DNA of 56,500 nucleotides from Clostridia bacterium (GTDB lineage: Bacteria > Bacillota > Peptococcia > DRI-13 > UBA5745). Position 1 is the stretch's first letter, and each line of letters starts with the position of its first letter. Below are positions 2,295-53,004 of this stretch, piece after piece. The stretch is taken from contig JAHDMJ010000037.1 in the NCBI GenBank assembly GCA_018436095.1, positions 1-56,500 of the forward strand, in the 5' to 3' direction. The notes under the pieces were generated by a model. The model did not search any database. It was given only the letters and a program-made list of their open reading frames with translations, and had not been told where the DNA came from. The position numbers and the translations under genes were made by a program.

Positions 2295-3764
2295 ATGATC
2301 GATTTGACCATTCATAAAGAGAACCTGGCTAAAAATATTAAACTGGCCAAGGATCATCAAGTCATCATCCCCACGCTCAGTCAAATGAAGCATCCGGAAA
2401 ATATTCCTTCCTATATAAAGGAACAATTAAAAGACGTTGGGCTTTGGGATATTAACCCCCTAAATTTATTCCGTATCACTTGGAAAAACGAGCCTAAAGA
2501 AAAGGGAGGCCTTTTTGGCGGCCCTAATTTTATTGAATTGCCTAAATCCCTCACCGGCGTAGACGCCCGCATTATTTGCCTGGTGGGCAAATGGTTCCCC
2601 ACGGGCTGCCACAAGGTAGGCGCTTCTTTTGGCTGCCTGGTTCCCCGGCTGGTTACCGGCCAGTTTGACGCCACTTATCATAAGGCTGTTTGGCCCTCCA
2701 CCGGCAACTACTGCCGGGGCGGCGCTTTTAATTCCAAGCTGTTGTCCGTTCCTTCCGTAGCTATTTTGCCGGAAGGCATGAGCAAAGAGCGTTTTGACTG
2801 GCTCAATTCTATTGCCGGCGAAGTCATTGCCACCCCCGGCTGTGAAAGCAACGTTAAAGAAATCTTTGACAAGACCTGGGAACTGCGGACCACCCGGCAG
2901 GACGTGATGATCTTCAACCAATTTGAAGAAATGGGCAACCACCTTTGGCATTACGAAGTCACCGGCAATGCCATCAAGGATGCCTTTGAATCCATCAAGG
3001 GCGAGAAAGGCCGGCTGGCGGCAGCTTGCTTTACCTCCGGTTCCGCCGGCACCATGGGCTGCGGCGATTTCCTGAAGGAGCAATATCCCGGCATGAAGCT
3101 GGCTGTGGGCGAGGCCCTGCAGTGTCCCACTTTATTGAACAACGGCTATGGCGATCACCGCATTGAGGGTATCGGCGATAAGCATATACCCTGGATTCAC
3201 AACGTCAAAAATACCGACATGGTTATCGCCATTGACGACGACGACAGCCAGCATTTGCTGAGAATGTTCAACGAAGAAGCCGGCAAAGAATATTTGATCA
3301 ACGAAGCCGGCGTGGATCCTGCTGTAGTAGAAAGCCTGAGCTTGCTGGGTATTTCCGGTATTGCCAATGTGCTTTGCGCAATTAAAACCGCCAAATACTA
3401 CGAGCTTACTGAGGACGATGTGGTCGCAACGGTTCTGACAGACTCCGCCGCCATGTACGGTTCCCGCATTCAGGAACTGGCTGAGGAAGAAGGCTCCTAC
3501 AGCCAATTGAAAGCCTGCATGGATTTCAACCGCCATATGCGGGGCATCCGTACAGACAGCATGGAAGAATTGACCTATCCTGCAAGAAAACGTCTGCATA
3601 ATTTGAAATACTACACCTGGGTAGAGCAGCAAGGCAGAAGTGCGGAAGAGTTGGACGAACTGTGGTACGGCTATGAAGAAACCTGGGGAGCCGTACATAA
3701 GCAGGCCGCTGCCATCGACGCTTTAATCGAGGAATTCAATCACCAGACAGGTTTGTTAAAATAA
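2295..3764 (+). CDS. PLP-dependent lyase/synthase-like enzyme, fold type II
   Basis: 489 residues related to the tryptophan synthase beta/cysteine synthase superfamily. The Schiff-base lysine is probably Lys107 in GCHKVGASFG. A substrate-binding STGNYCRGGA loop and a GSAGTMGCG phosphate-binding loop follow. Family members act on amino acids by beta-elimination or replacement. The substrate cannot be named: the sequence matches neither a plain CysK nor a TrpB pattern, and the protein is longer than CysK. It is monocistronic, with its own promoter and a following hairpin. The neighbouring opine dehydrogenase faces it convergently, so a metabolic link is possible but unproven. Confidence 0.8.
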   Translation: MIDLTIHKENLAKNIKLAKDHQVIIPTLSQMKHPENIPSYIKEQLKDVGLWDINPLNLFRITWKNEPKEKGGLFGGPNFIELPKSLTGVDARIICLVGKWFPTGCHKVGASFGCLVPRLVTGQFDATYHKAVWPSTGNYCRGGAFNSKLLSVPSVAILPEGMSKERFDWLNSIAGEVIATPGCESNVKEIFDKTWELRTTRQDVMIFNQFEEMGNHLWHYEVTGNAIKDAFESIKGEKGRLAAACFTSGSAGTMGCGDFLKEQYPGMKLAVGEALQCPTLLNNGYGDHRIEGIGDKHIPWIHNVKNTDMVIAIDDDDSQHLLRMFNEEAGKEYLINEAGVDPAVVESLSLLGISGIANVLCAIKTAKYYELTEDDVVATVLTDSAAMYGSRIQELAEEEGSYSQLKACMDFNRHMRGIRTDSMEELTYPARKRLHNLKYYTWVEQQGRSAEELDELWYGYEETWGAVHKQAAAIDALIEEFNHQTGLLK

Positions 3765-3781: not shown

Positions 3782-3871
3782 AGAAAAGAGCCTGCAATAC
3801 AGGCGCTTTTCTATGAAAAGAGGGTAGTAAATCCGGCAAGTCTAAAAAACTTGTTCGGATTTACTACCCTC
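3782..3871. terminator. Back-to-back hairpins between convergent genes
   Basis: A first hairpin (3782-3812, arms AGAAAAGAGCCTG and CAGGCGCTTTTCT, one mismatch) follows the PLP gene. A second very long hairpin (3820-3871) has arms starting GAGGGTAGTAAATCC. On the minus strand it is followed by TTTTC, so it probably ends the opine dehydrogenase transcript. Confidence 0.7.
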
Positions 3872-3898
3872 TATCATTCACCAGTTTCCTGTTATGTC

Positions 3899-5014
3899 TT
3901 ATAGTTCCCCTTCTAAAATATATCTTCTGATATTTTTCAAATCCATATTTTCAAGACCCATATGCTTTACTGACCGCCCGGCGCTCATATAGTCTGTTTG
4001 ATGAAGGAGAGACCCCAGCATAATAATCGAATCAATCGTCGGCGTAGGAACGTGGCTGAGCTTCCCGAGGGAGGCAATGGGAACAAGGCTCATTGGGATG
4101 TCTTCCGTGATATAGCGTGTAAACGTTGTCTTAGGAGCCTTGATATTATCATATCCTCTGTTATTGCGTATGGCTTCAAATAACGTTCTTCCATTGGCAT
4201 CGTAAGCGGTATAGAGCCATTCTCTCGCCGTCATTGCTCTAAACCCCAATGATTCAGCCACGTGCACTCTCTCTTTGTCCATGCTTTCAAGTATTATGGC
4301 AACTGACGAAGTAATTCCTTCCGTATAGAAATCAAAATTACCATTGGTGCTTTCTATTCTTGCGGCATTTAAGACAGTGACAGCAGGGTGAAAAATCGCG
4401 CCGATATTGTCCAGGCTTGTTTTCATCACATTGTCCCCAGGGACAAATTGCGGGAACACCGTGCGAAGTTTTCCCACAACTTCCGGGGTTCGGTGGGCAG
4501 GAATAGCGGCCACCGGTATGCTGTTTTTGGTTCGAAAAATTTGGGTTTGCGCAGGATTGATGGATCTGCTTGCATACAGGAGCGTCTGCGCTTCACATAT
4601 GACAACATTGGCTGTGCAATGATTACTCCTTAAAACATTTAAGACTTCCAAAGCGCCGCCTGTCCGTCCGGGATTCAGGATAATGATTTGGTTGTCGACA
4701 ACATGAGGGGCAAGCTGTTCTGCAATAAAGCGGTGTCCTGTAGCAGGAACCACAACCATGAGGATGTCCCTGCCAAGAATCGCTTTTTGAATATCGTTGG
4801 TAACGACATCGATTTGTGCAAATCCATTGGGGCCATCATTGCAAATAAGCTCTATGCCTCCGAGATTTTGAATCGCAGAGATCCGTTCCACTCCCCGATT
4901 GTACAAGCTTACATCGACCCCAAGCAGGCGAAGATGTGCGGCCATGGCTGTTCCACCGTGCCCTGCGCCGATAACTGCAAATTTTGGCAAGGACATATTA
5001 TTATTTTCTTTCAT
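3899..5014 (-). CDS. NAD(P)-dependent opine dehydrogenase family protein
   Basis: 371 residues. The N-terminal Rossmann domain has a GAGHGGTA dinucleotide loop at residues 16-23. The C-terminal half carries the octopine/nopaline dehydrogenase helical domain, with the catalytic His probably in IGAIFHPAV. These enzymes reductively join an alpha-keto acid to the amino group of an amino acid, or the reverse. The ATG at 5014 is chosen over the ORF start at 5050 because AGGGGTGATGTG precedes it. The gene follows the B12-binding protein gene by 54 bases on the same strand and is probably co-transcribed. Substrates are unknown. No nicotianamine-synthase-like gene is nearby, so a metallophore role is not supported. 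Confidence 0.85.
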   Translation of the reverse strand: MKENNNMSLPKFAVIGAGHGGTAMAAHLRLLGVDVSLYNRGVERISAIQNLGGIELICNDGPNGFAQIDVVTNDIQKAILGRDILMVVVPATGHRFIAEQLAPHVVDNQIIILNPGRTGGALEVLNVLRSNHCTANVVICEAQTLLYASRSINPAQTQIFRTKNSIPVAAIPAHRTPEVVGKLRTVFPQFVPGDNVMKTSLDNIGAIFHPAVTVLNAARIESTNGNFDFYTEGITSSVAIILESMDKERVHVAESLGFRAMTAREWLYTAYDANGRTLFEAIRNNRGYDNIKAPKTTFTRYITEDIPMSLVPIASLGKLSHVPTPTIDSIIMLGSLLHQTDYMSAGRSVKHMGLENMDLKNIRRYILEGEL

Positions 5015-5068
5015 CACATCACCCCTGCTTATTATTTTTTTCTCACGCAATAGAAGTGCCGGTTGATC

Positions 5069-6973
5069 TCAAAGACGGTTAACATTTTTTTGCGTTAATA
5101 CATATTCAATTTCCCTGAGGTTTTTCAACCCATAATCCACTACTTTATCGGATTTTATGGGCTTATTGTTGGCATCAACAACCTTTAAACCGCCCTTTAT
5201 AGGCCTTGTCTTCCATGCCTTGGCATATCTAAACTCATCAGTTTCCTTCCATAAATAAGGGACAGGCAAAAACCCTGCTGCAAAAATCTTATAAAAACCT
5301 TCTGCTGAATATGGATTGGCGATATTTTTTTCAATGCCGGCAATAATCGTTCCTGCAGAATCCATCAGTTCAAGCATAAGCTCTTGAACATCCATATTTC
5401 TGCTCATATCTTCTATTTTTTGATTCCTGCGCAGCCTTCTATATTCTTGCAAAGCATGCTGGGTGATTTTTATGCTTTCATTAATGACATCAGGCGTTGC
5501 TAAATGGGAAGCCTCCGAATAACTTACCACATGAATAATGGGCGGGCTTGTCTCATTATGCGGGTCAATATCATCCATTAGCGCCGTTACAGCTGCCAAC
5601 TGTATTTTGGCCTCTTCTATATCAGAGCTGAAATAGTCGATTCCAGCCCTTGGCTGAAGTAAAACCCTGAAGTTTGCATCTTCCAGACCTTTGATCAGCC
5701 CAATCATAGCCCTGGATTTTGCCAAATCTTGAATTCCCCAGGTAAGACGGGGAGTGTTTAGCATGTTTTGCAATATCAATGTCTTTATACCTATTTTTTT
5801 GGCAAGTTTAGCGCATAAATAGGCTGAAACAATATACGTTACATCGTCTGCGCCCCTAAAGGCAAAATGGTGGGGTACGTTTGGTTCAAAGGGTTTATTT
5901 GTCATTGCAATATATTTCAGGGTTTCAATATGCTGTTTTAAATTTGTTAATAGGTCGTAGGGACCTCTTTCGTCCAGTTTATTGAACCACCATAGGGATA
6001 AGGCATGCCAGCAAATATTAAGGGTATTTTCGTGCATCTCCGCCAACTGTGGTATGTCCTTTGTCCCGGCATAGGTTCTTAATAGCAAAGGTCTTGAAGC
6101 CTGCCATATCATCCGGTATTCTTCCGGTGAGTTGATGGGCACGCCGCCGCCATTGGGCCTATCTTCCCAGTCTTCGCCAAAATTAGATTGGGTTAATTGA
6201 GAACTTCCGATTGATAAAATATCCAGGTAGTTCGTATCTGCTAAATATTTTGCCCACGAGATGAATTCTTTGACGGAGTCCAGCCGATCAACAGAAGAAG
6301 AATAAGGCCCTACATGGGCGCGTATCAGCGGAAAGAAGGGCGTCTTCATATTAAAATCAATTCTCTTTTCGACTGTATCCTTAAAAGTGCCGAAGCCTTC
6401 ATATCTGGAACGGTCCACCGGCTTAAACTGGTTATAATGCCCGGCGTTAATGATGTCTTTACCGAAGGCCATGCGTTGGTCATCATACAAGCTGCTCTCG
6501 ATCATGTCCTTTGGTATTTTCTCTTCAGGGATGTCCATTTTTATTAATGTTTCGCGTATGTTTTCACCACTTTTAAACGTTCTGACGAAGCCCCTGTGTT
6601 CTCTTTCAATCACCAGACATGATCCTGGGAGCCCGCCAAAGAAAACGGACTTAATAGCCCCTCCCTGGTGATAAAACATATTACTTTTTTCAAGCTCATA
6701 CATAAAGCGGCCTACCATGTTGACGGCTTCATCCTGATCCAATCTATAGCTGAGGCCAATACGATTAATTCCATTACTGCGAATCCAATCTAATACCACC
6801 CGGCGATTGGCCTCGTATCTAAAATCATTCATTGCCTCTTCAATAGCTTCTTCAGCGACCATTACGGTATACCCGCAGGAACGCAGCAGTTCAGCAACCG
6901 TGTTAATGCCTAATGTATGCGCATCGAGGGATGGTTTGATAAGAGCGAATATATCCGTATCTAATGCAAACAT
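5069..6973 (-). CDS. Cobalamin-binding mutase-like protein
   Basis: 634 residues. The N-terminus carries the B12-binding Rossmann signature: D17-x-H19-x-x-G22 in SLDAHTLG, a Ser in GLSYRL (about 75) and a glycine pair in FFGGLPG (113-114). This implies base-off/His-on cobalamin binding. The remaining roughly 450 residues look like an alpha/beta barrel and vaguely recall the glutamate mutase large subunit (PNGGGVPINSPEEYRMI, HHFAFRGADD). That suggests a carbon-skeleton or amino mutase with cofactor and catalytic domains on one chain. The ATG follows AAGGAAGG. It is the first gene of an operon with the opine dehydrogenase. The reaction is not known, and the barrel assignment is inference. Confidence 0.65.
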   Translation of the reverse strand: MFALDTDIFALIKPSLDAHTLGINTVAELLRSCGYTVMVAEEAIEEAMNDFRYEANRRVVLDWIRSNGINRIGLSYRLDQDEAVNMVGRFMYELEKSNMFYHQGGAIKSVFFGGLPGSCLVIEREHRGFVRTFKSGENIRETLIKMDIPEEKIPKDMIESSLYDDQRMAFGKDIINAGHYNQFKPVDRSRYEGFGTFKDTVEKRIDFNMKTPFFPLIRAHVGPYSSSVDRLDSVKEFISWAKYLADTNYLDILSIGSSQLTQSNFGEDWEDRPNGGGVPINSPEEYRMIWQASRPLLLRTYAGTKDIPQLAEMHENTLNICWHALSLWWFNKLDERGPYDLLTNLKQHIETLKYIAMTNKPFEPNVPHHFAFRGADDVTYIVSAYLCAKLAKKIGIKTLILQNMLNTPRLTWGIQDLAKSRAMIGLIKGLEDANFRVLLQPRAGIDYFSSDIEEAKIQLAAVTALMDDIDPHNETSPPIIHVVSYSEASHLATPDVINESIKITQHALQEYRRLRRNQKIEDMSRNMDVQELMLELMDSAGTIIAGIEKNIANPYSAEGFYKIFAAGFLPVPYLWKETDEFRYAKAWKTRPIKGGLKVVDANNKPIKSDKVVDYGLKNLREIEYVLTQKNVNRL

Positions 6974-26847: not shown

Positions 26848-27104
26848 GATTGCAGCAACCCCTCAATTTGAGCAGCGTCTGATTTACGTTTGGTTAACCG
26901 ATTCGAATAAAAAGCCAAGACAGAATGGCCGCGGCATTTCGCCGGGGCCTTTTTCATAAGCCACTGGATTGGTTTATGCGACAAAAAAGTATAAAGCCTT
27001 ATTTTTTTGCTATACAGAGATGCTAAAATGGAACAAGTTCCGGTGAACCAATCTTTTCATGCCGGGAAAAGTGAAAACACGAGATTTTGAGGAGGAGCGA
27101 CAGC

Positions 27105-27698
27105 ATGAAACGTACATACGGATACGTAAGAGTATCCAGCAGAGATCAGAATGAGGATCGCCAACTGATTGCCATGAAAGAATTTGGCGTACCGGAACAG
27201 AATATCTTTTGCGACAAGCAATCCGGGAAAGATTTCAACCGGCCCGCTTACCAAAAGCTTTTAAAAAAAATAAAACCCGGCGATCTCTTTGTTATTAAAA
27301 GCATCGACAGGCTGGGCAGGGATTATGAAGAAATCATTGAGCATTGGCGGATCATTTCAAAAGAACGCGGAGCCGAAATCGTTGTCCTTGATATGCCGCT
27401 GCTGGATACGCGACAGAAAGACCGGGACCTGACGGGAACATTTATTGCCGACCTGGTGCTTCAAATCCTCAGCTATGTGGCACAGAAGGAGCGGGAGTTT
27501 AACCGGCAGCGCCAGGCCGAGGGCATTGCGGCAGCAAAAGCGAAGGGCGTCAAATTTGGCCGTCCTCCCAAGCATCATCCCGCCGCATTTTATGCCATGT
27601 TAAAGGAGTGGAGATGCGGCAAGATATCCGCCCGGCAGGCAGCAAAGCAACTGGAAATTGATCACAAAACATTTGCGCGGTGGGCTTCGGGGTATTAA
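27105..27698 (+). CDS. Small serine recombinase (resolvase/invertase family)
   Basis: 197 residues. The catalytic domain begins YGYVRVSSRDQNEDRQL, with the nucleophile Ser in RVSS. The active-site arginines are in KSIDRLGRDY, and a long E helix (RQRQAEGIAAAKAKGVKFGR) leads to a helix-turn-helix (ISARQAAKQLEIDHKTFARW). Size and layout match Hin/Gin-like invertases and Tn3 resolvases, not the large integrases. GAGGAGGAGCGACAGC precedes the ATG. A pair of inverted 19-base repeats with crossover-like centres lies directly downstream (27766-27923). A close relative is encoded at 46613. Confidence 0.93.
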   Translation: MKRTYGYVRVSSRDQNEDRQLIAMKEFGVPEQNIFCDKQSGKDFNRPAYQKLLKKIKPGDLFVIKSIDRLGRDYEEIIEHWRIISKERGAEIVVLDMPLLDTRQKDRDLTGTFIADLVLQILSYVAQKEREFNRQRQAEGIAAAKAKGVKFGRPPKHHPAAFYAMLKEWRCGKISARQAAKQLEIDHKTFARWASGY

Positions 27699-38737: not shown

Positions 38738-40708
38738 TTATGCCAAGCGCATAATGAGACTACCATTGAAACCCATCGTCGGCGCTAAAGCTAATGATGG
38801 ACTTCCGGGCATTTTAAGTCCCATACAGATCATGACTTGCGTTCCCTCTGTCAGCGCGACACTTATGTCATTTGACACCCCACTTACAATTGTACTATTA
38901 ATTGGGTAGCTTTGCCCTCCCTGAAATGGCGCTGTATCAAAATAAGTTTCCGGAACAAAGGTAAAGCTTTTACTATCAGGCAATGCGGTAGCAAGAACAA
39001 TATAAGGGACAAGGTCACTATAAGCAGTGAGATCAAAAAATGCACCGTTTATTACGCTTGCTCTTATTTTAGTGATTACTACGTCGGCAACTAAAGTAAA
39101 CATATAAAAATCGTCTGCTATAATAGGTGTAAAACTGTTACCGTTAGGCGCTCCCAGCGCTATATTAAGTCCGCTTTCTCCAAACCCGGTAACCGCAATA
39201 CTCGTAGATTGACCAGAAGCGTTTATTACCGGAGTAGCAATAGCAGTATAGCCAGTAGAAAAAGGAACGATAAATGAGGCGTTTGCTCCCGTTGGGCCAG
39301 TGGCACCATCTGCTCCTGTCGCGCCAGTTGCTCCGGTCGGTCCTGTGGCACCATCCGCTCCCGTTGCGCCAGTTGCTCCAGTCGGTCCTGTGGCACCGTC
39401 TGCTCCCGTTGCGCCAGTTGCTCCGGTCGGTCCTGTGGCACCGTCTGCTCCTGTTGCGCCAGTTGCGCCTGTTGCCCCAGTTGCACCGGTTGGGCCGATT
39501 TCGCCATCTGCTCCTGTTGCGCCAGTGGGGCCAGTCGGTCCTGTGGCACCGTCTGCTCCCGTTGCACCGGTTGCTCCGGTCGGTCCTGTGGCACCATCCG
39601 CTCCCATTGCGCCTGTTGCGCCGGTCGGTCCTGTTGCACCATCCGCTCCCGTTGCGCCTGTTGCGCCGGTCGGTCCTGTTGCACCGTCTGCTCCTGTGGC
39701 ACCAGTTGCACCGGTTGGACCGATTTCGCCATCCACTCCCGTTGCGCCTGTTGCACCGGTCGGTCCTGTGGCGCCGTCTGCTCCCGTTGCACCAGTGGGG
39801 CCAGTCGGTCCTGTGGCACCATCCGCTCCCGTTGCGCCTGTTGCGCCGGTCGGTCCTGTGGCACCGTCCGCTCCCGTTGCGCCTGTTGCGCCGGTCGGTC
39901 CTGTGGCACCGTCTGCTCCTGTGGCACCAGTTGCACCGGTTGGACCGATTTCGCCATCCACTCCCGTTGCGCCTGTTGCGCCTGTTGCGCCGGTCGGTCC
40001 CGTGGCACCGTCTGCTCCCGTTGCACCAGTTGCACCGGTTGGACCGATTTCGCCATCCACTCCCGTTGCGCCTGTTGCGCCTGTTGCGCCTGTTGCGCCG
40101 GTCGGTCCCGTGGCACCGTCTGCTCCCGTTGCACCAGTGGGGCCAGTCGGTCCTGTGGCACCATCCGCTCCCGTTGCGCCTGTTGCGCCGGTCGGTCCCG
40201 TTGCACCGTCTGCTCCCGTTGCACCAGTGGGGCCAGTCGGTCCTGTGGCACCATCTGCTCCTGTTGCGCCAGTTGCACCGGTTGGGCCGGTTGCTCCGTC
40301 TGCTCCCGTTGCGCCAGTGGGGCCGGCCGGTCCGGTCGATCCCGTTGCGCCAGTTGCTCCCGTTGCGCCAGTAGTCCCCGTAACGCTGCCGGAAGCTTCA
40401 ATTCTAACGATAGCAGAACCCTGCTCTACAGTAATATCTAAGGTTTGAGATTCAAATATTAGCCTGTCCCCATACCCCATTGTAGCGGATCCTTCTGGTC
40501 CAATTACATCAAATAAAAAATCACCTGGTTCAAGTGTGCCAACGGGACCCGTGGCTCCTGTGGGACCGGTTGTGCCTGTTGGGCCTGTTGGGCCTGTTGG
40601 GCATGAAATTCCGCCGGGACTACAACAGTAATATCCGGCATTGCAGCAGCAACGCCCGAAACATGCATTACAGCGAGTGCAGCGGTAATTGTGACAACCG
40701 TTTGACAT
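38738..40708 (-). CDS. Collagen-like spore-surface protein (BclA/BclB type)
   Basis: 656 residues. The Cys-rich N-terminus ([22 protein letters not shown]) is followed by a short GPTG run. A roughly 60-residue non-collagen insert (about 58-110) comes next. About 370 residues of uninterrupted Gly-X-Thr/Asp triplets follow, built from units such as [12 protein letters not shown]. The C-terminal domain of about 170 residues resembles the trimerising domain of exosporium glycoproteins of the BclB group. AAGGAGAAATGTT precedes the ATG. A role in the outermost spore layer is inferred from this architecture and the sporulating host. The Thr residues are potential glycosylation sites. Confidence 0.88.
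39290..40375. repeat. Collagen-coding tandem repeat tract
   Basis: Roughly 1.1 kb of 9-base triplet-pair repeats with higher-order units of 36-54 bases. The near identity of units (for example CACCGTCTGCTCCCGTTG many times) suggests frequent slippage and length variation. The tract creates long open frames on both strands, which are artefacts. Confidence 0.85.
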
Positions 40709-46612: not shown

Positions 46613-47266
46613 ATGCCAATAAACAACAAATACGGATACATCCGGGTATCCACACAGGAACAGCATGAAGATCGCCAGCATATAGCACTAACTCCCTATG
46701 AGATACCAAATAAAAACCTCTTTATCGACAAACAATCCGGCAAGGATTTTAACCGGCCGGCCTATAAACAGTTGGTACGCCGCCTGAAAAGGGGGGATAT
46801 TCTATATATAAAGTCCATTGACCGCCTGGGACGCAGTTATGGCGAAATCATCGAGCAATGGCGTTTTTTAATCCGGAATAAAGGCATTGATATCTATGTT
46901 ATCGACATGCCTTTATTGGACACCACCTATTGCAAGGACCTTTTAGGAACCTTCATCAGCGATCTGGTTTTACAGGTTCTCTCCTTTTCAGCTCAAATCG
47001 AAAGAGATAATCTGCTGCAAAGGCAGGCGGAAGGAATAGCCGCCGCCAAGGCCCGGGGAGTCATCTTTGGCAAACAACCATTACCGCTGCCGGAAAACTT
47101 CGAGGATATTTATAACCGCTGGCGCAGCGGTATGATAACAGCGGATCAGGCCGCAAAACAATGCGGCGTCTCCCGGCGAACTTTATATGAAAAAACAAGA
47201 GGACGCCGTCAATGCGAGGGCTGGTCACATGTGGGAATGCGCACCGATATCCGCCGCACCCGTTAA
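46613..47266 (+). CDS. Small serine recombinase, paralogue of the one at 27.1 kb
   Basis: 217 residues. The catalytic start is YGYIRVSTQEQHEDRQ; the arginine motif is KSIDRLGRSY, and the E helix LLQRQAEGIAAAKARGVIFG is nearly the same as in the first copy. A helix-turn-helix follows (ITADQAAKQCGVSRRTLYEK) and then a basic tail of about 25 residues absent from the first copy. ACGGAGGGAATAAATC precedes the ATG. It is divergent from the GGDEF/EAL-chemoreceptor operon. No clear pair of crossover-like inverted repeats was found next to it. Confidence 0.93.
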   Translation: MPINNKYGYIRVSTQEQHEDRQHIALTPYEIPNKNLFIDKQSGKDFNRPAYKQLVRRLKRGDILYIKSIDRLGRSYGEIIEQWRFLIRNKGIDIYVIDMPLLDTTYCKDLLGTFISDLVLQVLSFSAQIERDNLLQRQAEGIAAAKARGVIFGKQPLPLPENFEDIYNRWRSGMITADQAAKQCGVSRRTLYEKTRGRRQCEGWSHVGMRTDIRRTR

Positions 47267-49951: not shown

Positions 49952-50854
49952 CGGGAGCTGTTTATGGGCGACCGTCAGACAGGCAAAACAGCCTTAGGTA
50001 TAGATACGATCATCAATCAGAAAGACAAAGGCGTACGCTGCATTTATGTAGCCATCGGCCAGAAGGCTTCTACGGTGGCCCAAATTGTCCGCACCCTTAA
50101 GGAAAAAGGGGCTATGGATTATACCACCGTGGTGGTGGCCACAGCCAGCGACTCAGCGCCTTTACAATACATTGCCCCTTATGCCGGCTGCGCCATCGGC
50201 GAAGAATGGATGGAGTCAGGCAAGGATGTGCTGATTATCTACGATGATTTATCGAAGCATGCCGTAGCCTACCGGGCTTTAAGCCTGCTTTTGCGGCGGC
50301 CCCCGGGCCGGGAGGCTTATCCGGGAGATGTTTTCTATCTCCACTCCCGGCTGTTGGAGCGGGCAGCCTGCCTCAGCGAAGAATACGGCGGCGGCTCTTT
50401 GACGGCCCTGCCTGTTATCGAGACTCAGGAAGGCGATATTTCCGCCTACATCCCCACTAACGTTATTTCAATTACCGATGGGCAAATCTATCTGGAAACG
50501 GAGTTGTTTAACGACGGCGTCCGGCCGGCCATCAATCCCGGCTTTTCCGTTTCCCGGGTAGGCAGCTCCGCCCAAATCAAAGCCATGAAAAAACTGGCGG
50601 GGCCTTTGCGCATTGAATTGGCCCAATACCGGGAATTAGCGGCCTTTGCCCAATTCGGCTCCGACTTGAGCAAGGATACGCTGGAACGTTTAAAGCATGG
50701 TGAACGCATAGTGGAGATTCTGAAGCAGCCTCAATATCAGCCCATGCCTGTGGAGCAGCAGACCCTATTGCTCTATGTGCTTACCCGTAAGCGCAGCTAT
50801 AACAGCAATATAGCCGCTAAAGCCCTGGCTGCCATAACCGCCGCCAAAAAATGA
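49952..50854 (+). pseudogene. atpA: F1-ATPase alpha fragment joined to gamma sequence
   Basis: The frame opens at the alpha-subunit P-loop ([13 protein letters not shown]), so about 165 N-terminal residues are missing. Typical alpha sequence follows ([39 protein letters not shown]) up to [14 protein letters not shown]. Near 50790 the frame switches in phase to gamma-subunit sequence ([18 protein letters not shown]) and stops at 50854. The last 70-90 alpha residues and the first 70-80 gamma residues are therefore also lost. The ATG at 49964 is within the P-loop and has no ribosome site. Non-functional as an alpha subunit. Confidence 0.88.

Positions 50855-51382: not shown

Positions 51383-53004
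<1,622 letters not shown>

Follow-up and report, generated by a model that had tools for sequence, protein, structure and literature searches.

The window analysed here is a 56,500-nucleotide stretch of a Clostridia bacterium genome (positions 1 to 56,500 of contig JAHDMJ010000037.1, assembly GCA_018436095.1). Between positions 3899 and 6973, its minus strand carries two intact reading frames, the first for a vitamin B12-dependent mutase-like protein and the second for an opine dehydrogenase (ODH; Table 1). The start of the ODH at ATG 5014 was picked by eye from an upstream AGGGGTG, with GTG 5017 and TTG 5050 as alternatives, and the resulting gap between the genes would be compatible with a single transcript for both. 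Beyond the ODH end, a perfect inverted repeat separates the pair from a convergent gene for a pyridoxal phosphate (PLP) enzyme, and is probably a two-way terminator.

Table 1. Features of the mutase and opine dehydrogenase locus in the window.
Feature	Coordinates	Strand	Basis
B12-dependent mutase-like protein, single chain, 634 aa	5069..6973	-	Open reading frame translation, 19-sequence alignment, AlphaFold2 model, Foldseek, VIA-align
N-terminal B12-binding domain, about residues 8-150; cobalt-ligand candidate His19	6524..6952	-	Pfam, alignment, family profile
Glutamate-mutase-E-like barrel, residues 193-614	5132..6397	-	VIA-align Z 26.1 to 1cb7_B; profile-profile E 4.2e-7
CENDH-type ODH, 371 aa from proposed ATG 5014	3899..5014	-	PF02317, 1bg6 homology
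Intergenic gap between mutase and ODH, 54 bases	5015..5068	-	Sequence, given the ATG 5014 start
17-base perfect inverted repeat 3' of ODH, between two convergent transcripts	3819..3872		Sequence

An initial annotation of this DNA, made from the letters alone, had placed a DxHxxG...S...GG cobalamin signature at the N-terminus of the mutase, and our analysis bears this out. The signature reads D17-A-H19-T-L-G22, S75 and G113-G114, with D17, H19, G22, S75 and G114 invariant across the 19-sequence family alignment. The Pfam B12-binding model matches the window protein below threshold (E 0.0056, 16.9 bits vs a cut-off of 32.1) and is matched at E<=1 by all 19 family members, the best at 0.00099; a 21-sequence family profile retrieved solved B12 proteins, including ornithine aminomutase E (E 8.8e-6) and glutamate mutase S (E 2.9e-4). 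The B12 histidine is present in 103 of 103 family sequences with a letter at that column, and the aspartate of DxHxxG is retained in the window's branch, the same column holding cysteine in 74 of 103 family sequences.

The mutase-like barrel proposed behind this domain was likewise confirmed, by structure comparison and by profile homology. An AlphaFold2 model built from the 19-member alignment reached a mean predicted local distance difference test score (pLDDT) of 85.5 and a predicted template modelling score of 0.89, with pLDDT <50 at residues 1-4 and in the loop 257-276. Foldseek placed glutamate mutase E (1cb7_B) first (E 2.7e-9), followed by lysine 5,6-aminomutase, and the VIA-align comparison with 1cb7_B aligned 369 residues at a root-mean-square deviation of 3.2. 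Scores for lysine 5,6-aminomutase (Z 25.2), ornithine aminomutase (23.5) and methylmalonyl-CoA mutase (18.6) are to be read against a background of unrelated barrels from about Z 16.9; the fold thus matches both glutamate mutase and the aminomutases, the two kinds against which a structural check had been suggested. At the sequence level, a 21-sequence profile drawn from three branches of the family aligned colinearly over 378 columns with a 12-sequence glutamate mutase E alignment (probability 92.7). The barrel was recognised only by this wider profile and by structure: PDB sequences yielded nothing at E<=1 for the window mutase alone and no mutase barrel for the close-branch profile (the small subunit of 2-hydroxyisobutyryl-CoA mutase appeared at E 2.1), and the Met_asp_mut_E model (PF06368) had no match at E<=1 in the window protein. 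Wider-branch mutases match PF06368 at E 1e-8 to 1e-4, two of them above cut-off. The domain order, described at the outset as opposite to that of many mutases, is indeed the reverse of that in ornithine aminomutase E, where the B12 domain spans 604-739.

The barrel's pocket differs from that of glutamate mutase. In an hhalign profile mapping, which is not a superposition of coordinates, Arg66, Arg100 and Arg149 of glutamate mutase E, which we take to be its substrate arginines, align to His220, Gln262 and Tyr301, conserved in 104, 105 and 105 of 105 family sequences, respectively. All 105 keep Asp334 (at Glu171 of glutamate mutase E) and Glu487 (at Glu330), as well as Arg218, Arg299, Arg336, Arg373 and Arg442. 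A lysine sits 11 residues after the B12 histidine in ornithine aminomutase, presumably the PLP lysine; at this position all 104 mutase-family sequences with a residue in the column show A, L, M or V (Leu30 in the window), making an aminomutase of the PLP type unlikely. With the arginines replaced and the lysine absent, these marks set the mutase apart from standard glutamate mutases as well as from PLP aminomutases, and the altered pocket makes glutamate, bound in its usual way, an improbable substrate. Several mutase-bearing genomes also encode a true glutamate mutase E, including the window's own (G000), where it lies on another contig with GlmL-like and methylaspartase-like neighbours (C30, L151). 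By its signature and barrel, the window protein would belong to the B12 mutase superfamily, with cobalamin binding and radical catalysis predicted.

The second protein had been called an opine dehydrogenase, and this is confirmed. The Octopine_DH helical domain (PF02317) is matched at E 3.6e-48 (163.8 bits, cut-off 30), and the nearest solved relative is N-(1-D-carboxyethyl)-L-norvaline dehydrogenase (1bg6, E 4e-74). His210, Arg301 and Asp306, which we assume to be residues of the catalytic type, are retained with the first two Rossmann glycines in all 94 ODHs of the surveyed loci, and the third glycine in 87 of them.

The association of the two genes is conserved far beyond chance. The neighbourhood check that had been proposed covered 20 close loci from named genomes. 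Twelve of them have the two genes side by side, with the ODH upstream in the same orientation in 11 and convergent in one (L021); L010 and L026 could not be judged. The wider set comprised 87 loci, taken from 86 genomes, namely G011 and every mutase-bearing genome sampled from the window's phylum except G000 (85 of 86), and here an ODH lies on the same strand within 500 bases of the mutase in 80 loci (78 upstream, two downstream), further off or overlapping in three, and is missing in four, of which one lies at a contig end. The adjacency counts come from hidden Markov models (HMMs) run on stop-to-stop frames; greedy picking of open reading frames took antisense frames in some G+C-rich loci. 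We encountered neither a barrel lacking the B12-facing residues nor a pair conserved nowhere else, the two outcomes that the initial annotation had named as fatal to its reading.

Of 398 genomes sampled from the window's phylum, 86 (about a fifth) encode a mutase homologue, most of them in a shorter form of about 550 residues. Three branches can be distinguished: branch 1, which includes the window; branch 2, the common short form; and branch 3, a fusion with MutL in three loci (L071-L073). Branch 1 shares about 25-34% identity with the wider-branch mutases, and in a tree of 105 mutases the window protein falls inside it with support 1.0. Among 60 genomes near the window the mutase is present in five, the window's own included, and it is found in none of four other genomes of the genus and none of four others of the family; this rarity suggests that the gene was gained horizontally. 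In a tree of 94 ODHs, the window ODH groups with that of L021 inside a 21-member clade otherwise made up of branch-2 ODHs (support 0.993). The same mutase function has therefore acquired ODH partners from two lineages, which speaks for a genuine functional tie.

Further partner genes, counted with HMMs built from the loci and confirmed as family members by Pfam, accompany the pair in relatives. MutL, the accessory family of glutamate and ornithine mutases, occurs in 13 of the 87 wider loci (nine separate, three fused, one partial at a contig end); PF13941 matches one fused example at E 4.4e-87 and one separate example at E 4.2e-168. AsnB-like genes were found in 10 of the 87, eight of them downstream within about 100 bases or overlapping; those at L068, L070 and L141 were seen on stop-to-stop frames and were absent from the set of picked reading frames. 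Most AsnB-like members begin with the glutaminase cysteine and two (L170, L171) do not, so that amidation, ligation and lactam closure, the reaction of beta-lactam synthetase, are all still candidates. Ddl-like ATP-grasp genes of at least 376 bits occur in 13 of 87 wider loci and in three of the 20 from branch 1; the model itself was built from eight of the 16 sequences, and three further hits of 162-173 bits were not counted. In most wider loci the pair has no partner or is joined by MutL, AsnB or ATP-grasp genes. The window itself carries no MutL, AsnB-like or Ddl-like partner. Separately, a gene for a Crp-like regulator of the cyclic-nucleotide type lies directly downstream of the pair in three branch-2 loci (L059, L061, L063; Pfam for L059 only).

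This neighbourhood has appeared in print. In 2009, Zhang, Rodionov, Gelfand and Gladyshev proposed that 11 bacteria share a new family of B12-dependent proteins of unknown function; in the accessible part of that paper, the family always adjoins an octopine/nopaline dehydrogenase and has Ddl and asparagine synthase nearby in several organisms (PMC2667541). We infer that the window's family is the same one, from the genomic context of wider-branch loci (L057 and others) rather than from sequence comparison, and the window pair is a real and conserved, if divergent, member of it. A literature search of limited coverage found no later functional work on the pair. The statement that no characterised pathway pairs these activities is to be amended in that the pairing had been published as an uncharacterised prediction (PMC2667541). 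Of the initial interpretation as a whole, the B12 radical-mutase fold, the ODH and the conserved link hold, and an aminomutase of the PLP kind has become unlikely.

A regulatory signal was found in relatives. In an initial Rfam scan, the cyclic di-AMP (c-di-AMP) riboswitch RF00379 lay upstream of the ODH in five of 11 loci. We then scanned 80 genomes, namely G000 and 79 other mutase-bearing genomes, with six left out. RF00379 was matched in 62 of them, and 37 have a site upstream of the mutase in the same orientation and at most 7 kb away, at 1.1-4.3 kb; 36 of these sites are above cut-off and that of G404 is below. A rough estimate from genome size puts the chance expectation for such sites at well under one. 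None of the 37 genomes belongs to the window's branch. Among 75 further RF00379 sites that were read (one at a contig end and three below cut-off were left out), nine precede pathway-type genes: ODH in G310, G344, G385 and G394, AsnB-like genes in G374 and G081, and Ddl-like genes in G264, G190 and G157 (211-218 bits only). G310, G344 and G385 are exactly those genomes in which the flank is complete and lacks an ODH next to the mutase, and in all three the ODH stands behind an RF00379 of its own. The other 66 sites precede genes with no match to the six HMMs, among them TrkH, glycine-betaine transporters and wall hydrolases (by Pfam for L159, L195, L205, L160 and L162, the rest by eye). According to the accessible part of a published account, c-di-AMP controls osmotic responses (PMC7266159). 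A literature search found no published link between the pair and c-di-AMP; it did not extend to the gene lists of the original riboswitch papers, which may contain the operon. Two short Rossmann-type dehydrogenases also stand behind c-di-AMP riboswitches in G387 (L188, L202), a genome that has the pair, and are possibly further pathway genes. As for other regulation, Rfam reported no B12 riboswitch in the window or the scanned loci.

We give a probability of about one half to the reading that mutase and ODH form one biosynthetic pathway leading to a rearranged, opine-type amino acid derivative with an osmotic role in relatives. The two would act as consecutive enzymes, in either order. The mutase, a single chain, may use adenosylcobalamin to rearrange carbon skeletons in the manner of glutamate mutase, its N-terminal domain holding B12 through His19 and its barrel closing over the cofactor to generate a radical, with a substrate pocket unlike that of glutamate mutase. 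The ODH would be NAD(P)-dependent and, run in the synthetic direction, couple an amino group to a keto acid; the product of both would most likely be a branched amino acid derivative of the opine type. Asparagine-synthetase-like or ATP-grasp enzymes of relatives would then amidate or ligate this product. As the pathway would there be both switched by c-di-AMP and completed by amidation or ligation, the product is most likely an organic solute for osmotic and potassium balance; control of the pair in many relatives by a salt- and potassium-balance signal points to a small molecule, perhaps an osmotic one. A bolder version, which we regard as doubtful, is a widespread c-di-AMP-switched pathway in which the B12 mutase rearranges an opine, or an amino acid later turned into one, and AsnB-like or ATP-grasp enzymes amidate, ligate or ring-close it into a new class of organic osmolyte, the window's branch retaining the chemistry but not the riboswitch, which it either lost or never possessed. 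If true, this version would bring new chemistry, a B12 enzyme that rearranges an opine. A B12-dependent product controlled by c-di-AMP would connect osmotic balance to vitamin B12 and would also make the prediction of 2009 directly testable, the regulon naming the condition in which to seek the metabolite.

Several observations weigh against this biosynthetic, osmotic reading. An Rfam scan of the whole window reported only a single tRNA and no RF00379, the riboswitch was found nowhere in G000, and it is absent from all 17 branch-1 loci scanned (8 + 9; L008, L010 and L026 left out); the osmotic role is therefore carried from branch 2 to the window by homology. Regulons of c-di-AMP also contain wall hydrolases, so that the role of the pair could lie in the wall. 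An ODH is lacking in the available flank of six of the 20 close loci (L007, L008, L009, L012, L018 and L019, the last with little downstream sequence), and the close-branch profile alone matches glutamate mutase E weakly (E 0.024, probability 2). Finally, C26 peptidases and peptide transporters adjoin the branch-3 loci, and genes for sugar transfer or surface sugars occur near some branch-1 loci, neighbourhoods that would suit other roles.

Such neighbourhoods bear on the alternatives. Ornithine aminomutase and diaminopentanoate dehydrogenase act together in fermentation, and on this model the ODH would work oxidatively while the mutase reshapes an amino acid for breakdown. Close relatives include Acidaminobacter hydrogenoformans and [Clostridium] ultunense, presumably amino-acid fermenters, the pair in branch 3 adjoins C26 peptidases (two tested of three seen) and oligopeptide or DctM transporters, and the glutamate mutase E cluster of the window's genome speaks for the same model; the c-di-AMP control in 37 of 80 genomes and the amidating or ligating partners nevertheless fit synthesis better than breakdown, and we consider catabolism rather improbable. 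Ddl-like and AsnB-like enzymes occur in wall synthesis, and the pair might instead make a cell-surface building block, an opine-type or branched residue on a polysaccharide or wall peptide. A DegT aminotransferase and an ATP-grasp enzyme stand beside the pair in L111 and in L025, a Bacteroidaceae metagenome-assembled genome that adds a glycosyltransferase, and the flanks of L012 and L014 hold a UDP-sugar dehydrogenase and a sugar transferase, respectively. These are few loci, however; the window's neighbours are not surface genes and the typical wider locus, described above, is of another kind, so that a surface role appears unlikely.

The same fold and the remote homology would also suit a conventional glutamate mutase that is arranged differently and supplies methylaspartate for fermentation or for making isoleucine. 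This candidate was rejected, and we hold it to be very improbable indeed, given the replacement of all three arginines across the family and the true glutamate mutase E already carried by G000 and several other genomes. Synthesis of an opine-type derivative is the reading that we prefer.

Elsewhere in the window, the convergent PLP enzyme (2295-3764, plus strand) has 489 residues and the cysteine synthase/tryptophan synthase beta fold, and falls far under curated family cut-offs (best cysK, E 2.7e-24, 86 bits of 351). By eye, plus-strand frames at 49964-50854 and 51445-53004 resemble a shortened ATP synthase alpha subunit, beginning at the nucleotide-binding motif, and a beta subunit; two similar resolvase-like genes lie 19 kb apart (27087-27698 and 46613-47266, plus strand); and a minus-strand gene at 38738-40708 encodes a collagen-like GPTGPT repeat protein with a cysteine-rich start and an exosporium-type likeness.

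Among known systems, glutamate mutase (GlmS and GlmE) resembles the window mutase in its barrel fold and colinear homology, in its B12 domain and, as regards relatives, in the association with MutL. It differs in having separate S and E chains instead of one chain with the B12 domain first and in possessing the three substrate arginines, and where glutamate mutase is paired with methylaspartase, the window family often has an ODH. Ornithine 4,5-aminomutase and lysine 5,6-aminomutase share a related barrel (Z 23-25) and a B12 domain, whereas the window mutase lacks the lysine at the PLP position and has the opposite domain order. The 1bg6 dehydrogenase is homologous to the window ODH over its whole length, with His and Asp retained, and differs in that the window enzyme has a B12 mutase as its operonic partner. 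The family of Zhang et al. (2009) shares the N-terminal B12-binding domain and the adjacent octopine/nopaline dehydrogenase; the accessible text mentions neither a barrel like that of glutamate mutase E nor a link to MutL or a riboswitch (PMC2667541). Relative to that text, the new elements are the glutamate-mutase-like barrel, the replaced arginines together with the missing PLP lysine, the association or fusion with MutL, and the linkage to c-di-AMP riboswitches.

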